Under the pieces are notes generated by a model, which searched no databases, was not told the origin of the DNA, and was given only the letters and a program-made list of their open reading frames with translations. A program made the translations under genes and the position numbers. Positions 18,709 to 22,610 of a stretch of DNA of 31,974 bases are shown here, piece by piece. The first letter of the stretch is position 1; every line of letters begins with the position of its first letter. Where the stretch lies: positions 1-31,974 of IMG/VR virus record IMGVR_UViG_3300037104_001099, one strand, 5' to 3'. Source of the DNA: a virus.

Positions 18709-19593
18709 ATGGCTACCGTCTACGATACCATCACCGAACGAATAATCGAACAGCTAAATTCTGGCGTAGCCCCATGGCATAAACCATGGCTTAGTTACGG
18801 CGGACAAGCTACAGCACCTCGCAACTTAATCAGCCAAAAGCCATACAGGGGCATCAATGCTCTGCTGACTCTGGTCTCGCCTTACTCATCCCCATTCTGG
18901 CTTACCTATAAGCAAGCTGCTGGCATAGGCGGTCACGTCAATGCTGGTGAGAAATCTACTCCAATCGTGTTTTGGAAGTTTGGCAAGGAAGAGCAAGCCG
19001 AACCCGATGGCGAGATTACCACGACTAAGACTTGGGCAATGTGCCGTCTATACCACGTGTTCAATTACGAGCAATGCACAATCCCCGGTCTCAAACTTGA
19101 CTCGACGCCAACCACACCCGACAAAACTTTCAACCCGATTCCGATTTGCGAGAAAATCGTTGCCGAATTCGCTGGAAAACCCCCAATCCACCATGCCGGA
19201 GATAGGGCATTCTATACGCCATCCCGTGACACTGTGACCATGCCTGCTCGTGAGTCGTTCGATGGTCCTGAAGAGTATTACAACACGCTATTCCATGAGT
19301 TGACCCATTCGACTGGGCATTCGTCTCGCCTTGACCGAGAAGGCATCAACGTCCCTCACTTCTTTGGCGATGCTGTCTACTCCCGTGAAGAGTTAGTCGC
19401 AGAGATGGGAGCAGCATTCCTGTCAGGTCACTGCGGTATCGAGAATAAAACCCTGAACAATTCCGCCTCTTACCTGCAATCGTGGATTAAAGCACTGCGG
19501 TCGGATTCGAAACTGGTAATCGTTGCCGCTGGAGCCGCACAAAAAGCCGCTGACCTGATTCTTGGCGTCACTGCCAGCAAGGGGGTGAACTAG
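18709..19593 (+). CDS. ardC: ArdC-like antirestriction protein with zincin metallopeptidase domain
   Basis: A 294-aa protein in the ArdC layout. The N-terminal ssDNA-binding domain (about 1-130) carries APWHKPW, PRNLISQKPYRGIN and FWLTYKQA. The C-terminal zincin peptidase carries the metal motif FHELTHSTGH (HELTH at 196-200) and a downstream acidic helix EELVAEMGAAFL that supplies the third ligand. ArdC proteins protect incoming DNA from host restriction. The start is set by AGGAGG 7 nt upstream. It is the first gene of the early operon, as expected for a function needed on entry, and both key regions look intact. Confidence 0.88.
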   Translation: MATVYDTITERIIEQLNSGVAPWHKPWLSYGGQATAPRNLISQKPYRGINALLTLVSPYSSPFWLTYKQAAGIGGHVNAGEKSTPIVFWKFGKEEQAEPDGEITTTKTWAMCRLYHVFNYEQCTIPGLKLDSTPTTPDKTFNPIPICEKIVAEFAGKPPIHHAGDRAFYTPSRDTVTMPARESFDGPEEYYNTLFHELTHSTGHSSRLDREGINVPHFFGDAVYSREELVAEMGAAFLSGHCGIENKTLNNSASYLQSWIKALRSDSKLVIVAAGAAQKAADLILGVTASKGVN

Positions 19594-20792: not shown

Positions 20793-21224
20793 ATGAGCAC
20801 ATATATCGTTGCTGACGCTACCATAAACCGGGTGATTGATTCTCTGGTTTGCGACCGCCGTCGTGAGTTCGAATGGTACAAGAAAGCGATTCTCACGGCT
20901 GCCCAAATCGACTTATTTGACGACGATTGGACGACCAAGCTGGGGGTGTCCATGTCTCAGATGAACGATGCCGCCATGGATTCCCGATATAGTGAAGGGA
21001 CGGCGGCTGGCGATAGGGCAGGTAAAGCGTATGAATACCACATGGAACGCCCCGACAGCTTGATTCAGGTTTACAAGTCCCTTGGCTGTTACCTATATCA
21101 GTGCTCTGAGGGTGACGTTCCGGAAGCCTTTGCCCTTTACAAAGCCTTGGAAGATTACAAGCACGCCCTTGCCGATCACATCATTAGCGACCTACCCGCC
21201 TATGACAAGGCGGAATGGGCTTAG
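20793..21224 (+). CDS. Hypothetical early protein upstream of the ribozyme
   Basis: A 143-aa mostly helical protein starting at MSTYIVADATIN, with AAGGAGA before the ATG; the frame is open upstream but without support. It contains RREFEWYKKAILTAAQ, an acidic stretch FDDDW and YKALEDYKHALADHI. No catalytic motif is recognised. Its stop codon TAG overlaps the first base of hammerhead stem I, so ribozyme cleavage would trim the transcript about 47 nt after the coding sequence. Confidence 0.68.
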   Translation: MSTYIVADATINRVIDSLVCDRRREFEWYKKAILTAAQIDLFDDDWTTKLGVSMSQMNDAAMDSRYSEGTAAGDRAGKAYEYHMERPDSLIQVYKSLGCYLYQCSEGDVPEAFALYKALEDYKHALADHIISDLPAYDKAEWA

Positions 21225-21277
21225 GCTGCCTGATGAGGCTTATTGAGCCGAAACCCGGAGTGATCCGGGTCGCAGTC
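21224..21277 (+). ncRNA. Type I hammerhead self-cleaving ribozyme
   Basis: All core positions are present in the correct order. Stem I 5' strand GGCTGC is at 21224-21229 and core CTGATGA at 21230-21236. Stem II is GGCT/AGCC (21237-21240 with 21246-21249, loop TATTG). GAAA follows at 21250-21253. Stem III is CCCGG/CCGGG (21254-21258 with 21265-21269, loop AGTGAT). U21270 pairs with A21253, and the cleavage triplet is GTC with C at 21271. Stem I 3' strand GCAGTC (21272-21277) pairs with the 5' strand with one G-U. Predicted cleavage is between 21271 and 21272. The open stem is stem I, hence type I. It lies between two small early genes. Confidence 0.88.
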
Positions 21278-21299
21278 AAATTCGCAGGAGGAAAATCAC

Positions 21300-21461
21300 A
21301 TGGAAGACGAAATGGCAATCAAGTTTCCGTCAAGCATTGGCAGGGCAGTAGCGGGGGCGCTTGAAGTTGGTGCCGAAGGAATCGAAGACCCAGAAACCTA
21401 CAAACAAGTTATGGCTTTAGTTGCTGGTTTGAACGATGCATTAAGCGCTTACGGCTTATGA
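21300..21461 (+). CDS. Small acidic protein (53 aa) downstream of the ribozyme
   Basis: A 53-aa frame starting MEDEMAIKF with a strong AGGAGG upstream. After hammerhead cleavage its message would have a 28-nt leader beginning with 5'-hydroxyl G. It contains a small helical segment (GRAVAGALEVGAEGIED). The function is unknown. The product overlaps an unlikely longer start of the next gene. Confidence 0.62.
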   Translation: MEDEMAIKFPSSIGRAVAGALEVGAEGIEDPETYKQVMALVAGLNDALSAYGL

Positions 21462-21487: not shown

Positions 21488-21697
21488 ATGGCTGACACAT
21501 TCTTGCCAGAAACCGTCACAGCCCGTTATCGCTGTGCTACCGCCGTTGAACTCATAGAGGCGCTTACCAGCATGGTATCGCCCGATGACACTGTATTGAT
21601 TGAAGATGCCCCGCTGATTGTGGAACTGGTTGAAAAGAAACTCAGTGATGGTTCGCCAGTTCACGACATACGAGTGTATCGCCAGCGGAACTGTTAG
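21488..21697 (+). CDS. Small hypothetical protein (69 aa)
   Basis: Starts at MADTFLPETV with AGGAGGG upstream; an in-frame ATG at 21458 overlapping the previous stop is also possible. It has acidic turns (SPDDTVLIED) and a compact alpha/beta pattern. No family is recognised. It lies in the small-gene part of the early operon. Confidence 0.6.
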   Translation: MADTFLPETVTARYRCATAVELIEALTSMVSPDDTVLIEDAPLIVELVEKKLSDGSPVHDIRVYRQRNC

Positions 21698-21716: not shown

Positions 21717-21899
21717 ATGGCACTAGATACACGAGATGCGATCTTGCATAAGCTACTGGCAGAGATGCCGGAACTGTTAGCTGATTATCTCCACCTTGCC
21801 CAAGACGTTGATGGCAAGGTGGATGCCGTCCGGAAGCAGAGGCATCGGAAGATTACCGCATTGCTGTTCAAGTATCAGAATTGGCATTCGGTTCGCTAG
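21717..21899 (+). CDS. Small helical protein (60 aa), hypothetical
   Basis: Starts at MALDTRDAIL after GGGGGAG. It is all helical and charged (LLAEMPELLADYLHLAQDV, then Arg/Lys-rich). It is the last gene before the operon terminator. No function is recognised. Confidence 0.62.
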   Translation: MALDTRDAILHKLLAEMPELLADYLHLAQDVDGKVDAVRKQRHRKITALLFKYQNWHSVR

Positions 21900-21916: not shown

Positions 21917-21944
21917 GGGGTAGGTGACAGCCTACCCCTTTTTT
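21917..21944 (+). terminator. Strong intrinsic terminator of the early operon
   Basis: GGGGTAGG and CCTACCCC form a perfect 8-bp stem around TGACAG, followed by six T. It ends the plus-strand operon 17 nt after the last stop, and its T-run overlaps the stop of the convergent minus-strand gene. Confidence 0.92.
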
Positions 21945-22194: not shown

Positions 22195-22361
22195 TTCTTT
22201 CCTTTGCGTTTCGTTGCGGGTTTCTTGGGCTTCACATGGTCGGGCAGCTTGCTGTAATTCGTGCCATGAGCCCACTCATCGACCGCTGATTGTCCACCAA
22301 GGGCTTTCTTGCCTTCAGGAGTGTTAGCCCATCGTTCTTGAGCCTTCGATTTGAACGGCAT
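22191..22361 (-). CDS. Small basic phage protein (56 aa)
   Basis: A 56-aa frame with MPFKSKAQERWANTPEGKK, then a KLPDHVKPKKPATKRKGKK tail. The opening resembles a family of short phage proteins that keep the MPFKSKAQERWA block. GAGGG precedes it and its stop overlaps the next ATG as ATGA, so it is coupled to the exported protein. The function is unknown; nucleic-acid binding is likely from its charge. Confidence 0.62.
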   Translation of the reverse strand: MPFKSKAQERWANTPEGKKALGGQSAVDEWAHGTNYSKLPDHVKPKKPATKRKGKK

Positions 22362-22610
22362 ACCTATAATCCCTCACCCCGACCGTAACTATCGCCCAGA
22401 AGTGAAGCCTGAGCCATGGCGAGGTATATTTTTAGTTGAGGGAGAACGGCGATGCGTCGGTAGGGTATCAGCCCGGAAGGGCGTCATGGACTCATGCCCG
22501 TCCCGGGCAAAGCAGGTTTGACCCATGCCGTCATCCCTCACTGCTATGAATAACCGGATCGGTTGCGGATTGCGGTCGGATCGGGAGACAATAGCTGCGG
22601 AGGGAAATCG

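Follow-up and report, generated by a model that had tools for sequence, protein, structure and literature searches.

A compact type I hammerhead ribozyme at a phage gene junction that may head an exchangeable gene cassette

In 2011 Perreault et al. described hammerhead ribozymes (HHRs) that flank prophage genes close to ardA and to integrases, and proposed that they process long phage messages into single-gene mRNAs (PMC3088659). Other prophage hammerheads form tandem arrays, for which cleavage was reported (in vitro; one triple array in E. coli) (PMC3088659), and a 2017 review treats the role of prokaryotic hammerheads as an open question (PMC6155905). We analysed a stretch of 31,974 nucleotides, i.e. 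positions 1 to 31,974 of the IMG/VR virus record IMGVR_UViG_3300037104_001099 (the window hereafter), which carries phage genes for terminase, portal, head, replication and integrase and, at positions 21224-21277, a compact type I HHR. It resembles the prophage hammerheads of Perreault et al. in class, core and proposed message-cutting role, and both lie between small phage genes that are not conserved, with integrase and antirestriction genes in the vicinity, but the window HHR differs in being single in its contig, compact and limited to a stem I of 6 bp (PMC3088659). The spacing of stop codon, ribozyme and leader and the cassette boundary reported here were measured in the present analysis and are not taken from that work. 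The initial annotation had no evidence that this instance or its role had been described; that phage HHRs flank genes and may process mRNA has been in print since 2011 (PMC3088659). For the spacing rule and the cassette edges of the compact form, no description was found in a literature search that missed most subscription papers.

The ribozyme lies in the sense strand between co-directional phage genes, and all features of this junction given here are on the plus strand. The upstream gene (20793-21224), supported by homologues, encodes a protein of 143 amino acids, and its TAG stop codon (21222-21224) shares its last base with the first base of the HHR. Homologues covering residues 1-143 reach 93% identity in the closest relative of the window, G001, and 29% in ANMV-1 virus, with no PHROG or Pfam match to the protein; its relatives are widely spread, including ANMV-1 virus (archaeal host), Butyrivibrio loci and a Phycisphaerae MAG. 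Further 5' lie an ArdC-like antirestriction gene (18709-19593) and a clamp-loader-like gene, and the neighbouring genes, called early in the initial annotation, may belong to that class. Loci of Pelagibacter phages with a compact HHR (L136 816-1683 and L134 3754-4626) also contain, close to it, ArdA (in Jormungand) and an integrase, which echoes the reported ardA link (PMC3088659); the window has ArdC. Downstream of the predicted cleavage site, a leader of 28 nt (21272-21299), predicted from the sequence, would comprise the 3' strand of stem I followed by AGGAGG (21286-21291), ahead of three open reading frames: gene A (53 aa, 21300-21461, ATG at 21300), gene B (69 aa, 21488-21697) and gene C (60 aa, 21717-21899). 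Relatives of genes A and B were looked for and none were found. Relatives of gene C with 92% identity occur in two phage contigs (L137 3001-3182 and L138 1373-1554), where the gene forms a gene-sized block near the integrase gene in an order different from that in the window; the integrase of both contigs is also related to that of the window. A terminator-like hairpin GGGGTAGGTGACAGCCTACCCC followed by TTTTTTATAT (21917-21938) comes from a consensus scan only, and sites of this kind are no commoner than in shuffled sequences.

Direct reading of 21224-21277 gives, in this order, GGCUGC CUGAUGA GGCUUAUUGAGCC GAA ACCCGGAGUGAUCCGGGU C GCAGUC. Stem I is formed by 21224-21229 with 21272-21277 and contains a single G-U pair (G21225/T21276); it is followed by the catalytic core C3-A9 (CUGAUGA, 21230-21236; G8 at 21235), which is invariant or nearly so among the siblings described below, and by stem II with its loop GGCUUAUUGAGCC (21237-21249). 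The segment 21250-21271, assigned by sequence, fold and descriptor, holds the GAA of the core (21250-21252), the stem III hairpin (21253-21259 with 21264-21270) and C17 (C21271), with A15.1 (A21253) pairing with U16.1 (T21270) next to the cleavage site. The conserved CUGANGA ... GAAA core and an NUH cleavage triplet, here GUC, are both present, and the three helices meet at the core with stem I open and stems II and III closed, i.e. in type I topology. The 54-mer alone is predicted to fold into exactly the hammerhead structure (-24.4 kcal/mol, z -3.4). Reading the sequence anew agrees with the initial annotation on the complete ribozyme with its core, triplet and three stems, on the positions of the A-U pair and of the lone G-U pair, on the start at the last base of the upstream UAG, on the predicted cleavage after 21271 and on the 28-nt leader with AGGAGG ahead of the ATG at 21300.

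A chance resemblance, or a mere terminator-like hairpin, is one alternative, and the Rfam results could be read that way, as no family reached its gathering score in the window (best weak match RAGATH-1 at 16.9 bits; type III at 12.1 bits). The initial annotation had proposed such scoring as a check, which turned out to be insensitive to this form: the Rfam miss does not refute the ribozyme, because ten sibling loci with 1-5 HHRs each also gave nothing at gathering, sibling L069 scoring 19.9 bits with the Rfam type I model (RF00163) against a threshold of 34 bits. Since the gathering score is not reached, we file the window HHR under the ribozyme class and not under RF00163 (Hammerhead_1), with which it shares topology and core, but for which it did not reach E 10. 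It also shares its core and open stem I with RAGATH-1 (RF03152), but scores 16.9 bits against a threshold of 56.3 bits and has no convincing match to the 5' hairpin of that model. The window's exact stem II sequence was found nowhere else in viral contigs, and BLAST of the HHR against named phages returned chance-level matches only.

A descriptor with loose stems matched once in the window, both strands being scanned, and not at all in 30 Mb of sequence simulated from the dinucleotide composition of the window, which speaks against chance. A scan of IMG/VR that fixed the core and a GGC/GCC stem II and nothing else matched at least 120 stretches, and among the 127 distinct matches listed 87 also form type I stems I and III that are in register with an NUH site. 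From the scan contigs 54 siblings were aligned to build a covariance model, the window being excluded from training, and this independent model scores the window HHR at 55.5 bits (E 1.6e-11), its sole match in 90 kb including G001; it also matches the cultured Flavobacterium phage elemoC and the Pelagibacter phages Jormungand and HTVC019P. In the sibling alignment 13 of the 15 pairs show changes in both partners and 99.9% of cells are paired, counts that are biased towards pairing as the descriptor demanded it, a bias of which the model match and the simulation are independent. Taken with the failure of Rfam at the ten sibling loci, the absence of matches in simulated sequence and the model E-value strongly disfavour a chance resemblance, to which we assign a negligible probability, and 21224-21277 is almost certainly a real hammerhead.

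The family set comprises 118 distinct HHRs including that of the window, 107 of which have a stem I of exactly 6 bp. Among members with a 13-nt stem II, the base 5' of stem I is A in 99% and the bases 3' of it are A (98%) and A (79%), with loop II containing a U in 100% and an A in 96%. Of the features bearing on a tertiary contact between the stem I region and loop II, the window HHR retains the A and AA on either side of stem I and the U of loop II, but the loop A is replaced by U, a change shared by another sibling that has T at the same position. With the compact type I HHRs of IMG/VR phage contigs, elemoC, Jormungand and HTVC019P it has in common the 6-bp stem I, a GGC-type stem II, the flanking A/AA found in most and a GUC or GUA site, but it differs in having T where loop II usually has adenine and in its stronger competing fold. 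Neither a pseudoknot of loop II with the flanks (no convincing covariation signal across the family) nor a further stem I helix (30 seen, 31 expected) was supported; a possible GAAU/AUUC extension in the window was treated as chance, there being no family excess of a second helix. Arrays of compact type I HHRs, roughly one small gene apart, occur in L069 (five in 1.7 kb), L028 (five) and L078, L082 and L093 (four each). Matches without type I stems (L013, L045, L080, L102, L107 and others) show GAAAC followed by an AGG- or GAGG-like stretch and an ATG within about 20-45 nt, and by eye many of them look like type III HHRs directly 5' of start codons. In elemoC (L135 3968-4075) a deposited antisense ORF overlies the HHR and is probably a false gene call.

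The position of the ribozyme between stop and start codons is stereotyped. In 94 of the 118 HHRs, an upstream ORF of 50 aa or more terminates between -8 and +24 relative to the first base of the ribozyme, and the ATG of an ORF of 40 aa or more follows cleavage by 10-60 nt, a layout seen at 183 of 2145 (8.5%) random same-strand CTGA control sites. Sibling leader lengths peak at 23-28 nt, and the window is typical with its stop at +1 and its leader of 28 nt. Frequently the UGA within the CUGAUGA core (+10), or a stop near +20, terminates the upstream ORF (e.g. L010, L048, L093), in which cases the ribozyme itself supplies the stop codon. This layout and the constant leader, together with tandem HHRs between successive genes in single contigs, also fit plain operon punctuation, in which the HHR splits the message so that each half can be expressed under separate control and cassette exchange plays no part, a reading close to the initial annotation and to the 2011 proposal (PMC3088659), which speaks for it. 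The clustering of homology boundaries at HHRs and the absence from G001 of the HHR together with its whole block argue against it, and we regard it as a rather unlikely account. The message split as such is predicted by the anatomy and recurs as a layout in 94 of 118 siblings, but the idea dates from 2011 and in native context a rival hairpin is predicted to be more stable by 4 kcal/mol.

In this competing hairpin (21218-21249), the predicted minimum free energy structure of longer transcripts, GGCUUAG (21218-21224) pairs with UUGAGCC (21243-21249), which would break stem II as well as the core. When 40 nt of native flank are included, the minimum is 4.0 kcal/mol below the HHR fold, a larger gap than in nearly all siblings. 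The tail of the upstream gene, GGGCTTAG, is identical in G001, which has no HHR, and therefore the competing pairing looks accidental and not like an evolved switch; a translation-coupled switch acting via this hairpin is weak as a candidate on the same ground. A rival reading is that the window carries a true hammerhead that is slow or inactive, having come with a cassette and being kept mostly uncut by the loop II change and by the hairpin with the last codons of the upstream gene. The deviation at a near-invariant loop II adenine, the 4 kcal/mol by which the longer transcript favours the competing fold and the tail GGGCTTAG being native to the upstream gene, as in G001, are consistent with this. 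However, core bases and stem pairs are all intact, which decay would soon break, nearest-neighbour energies exclude tertiary contacts, co-transcriptional folding and ribosomes at the stop codon, and the loop II T is also present in another sibling, so that we consider an inactive copy improbable. The HHR probably cleaves in its native transcript, at the site predicted after C21271.

Comparison with G001 (19.9 kb) shows a sharp loss of homology at the HHR edge: the two are collinear, with 83% identity, up to the exact TAG, past which G001 lacks the HHR and genes A-C and has instead 86 nt with a terminator-like hairpin, homology resuming at 22554 apart from a short matching stretch at about 22197-22235. 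The HHR with genes A-C against G001 is one clean example for a portable cassette, in which gain here and loss in G001 look the same as only one close relative is available. The terminator-like site after genes A-C was also considered as the displaced terminator of G001 and rejected, the alignment score being no better than for shuffles. Distant relatives of the upstream gene have other sequence 3' of it, without an HHR. Among alignments of at most 97% identity, 13 of 15 end at HHRs and 2 cross them, compared with 17 ending and 25 crossing (17/42) at HHR-less junctions within 3 kb and with ends in 23% of cases for random windows; these numbers are only suggestive, because the counts are few and not independent, with reciprocal pairs counted twice. 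In four phage pairs (L014/L049, L030/L096, L055/L059, L057/L056) a shared block containing the HHR and the downstream gene starts within 13 nt of the HHR 5' end.

In two phage pairs the upstream homology ends inside an HHR carried by both, which would also fit the shared HHR sequence serving as a short recombination site for phage gene exchange, with RNA cleavage being secondary. Against this, the stems covary in the fashion of RNA pairing, with the reservation that pairing was a selection criterion of the descriptor, and stem I has a constant length of 6 bp, which would be needless for DNA recombination alone; we hold a recombination site to be very improbable.

The best explanation in our judgement, at a probability of roughly 0.5, is that the window HHR heads an exchangeable gene cassette and cuts its transcript free. 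The HHR, lying in the sense strand of a co-directional block, would fold after the ribosome leaves the UAG at the 5' edge of the ribozyme, and the RNA would cut itself after C21271 during or soon after transcription. Hammerhead cleavage leaves a 2',3'-cyclic phosphate and a 5'-hydroxyl, and in type I topology the ribozyme body stays on the upstream product. The upstream product would carry the folded ribozyme and a 2',3'-cyclic phosphate at its 3' end, and the downstream message would start at a 5'-hydroxyl, with the 28-nt leader containing AGGAGG ahead of the 53-aa gene. The small exchangeable cassette headed by the HHR would comprise genes A-C up to the terminator-like site, and the ribozyme would provide it with a defined 5' end in any transcript into which it is inserted, without a promoter of its own, a presumed benefit that fits the homology edges. 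Cassette heading has about even odds of being the right biological frame. For compact type I HHRs in phages at large we suggest, tentatively and at less than even odds, that they are heads of portable gene cassettes, each a unit of HHR, leader (about 26 nt) and gene that is transferred as a whole and in which the ribozyme supplies the newcomer with an mRNA start that needs no promoter.

The window HHR is another case of the known phage hammerheads, well supported as a hammerhead, and adds a hint on cassette exchange. It offers a close relative without the HHR and its genes, plus a large set of siblings with stereotyped stop and start spacing. Since current Rfam models failed to detect the compact form wherever they were tried, existing annotation probably underestimates the number of phage hammerheads, and as cultured phages carry this form, the ideas of message processing and of cassette exchange are testable in laboratory phage-host pairs.
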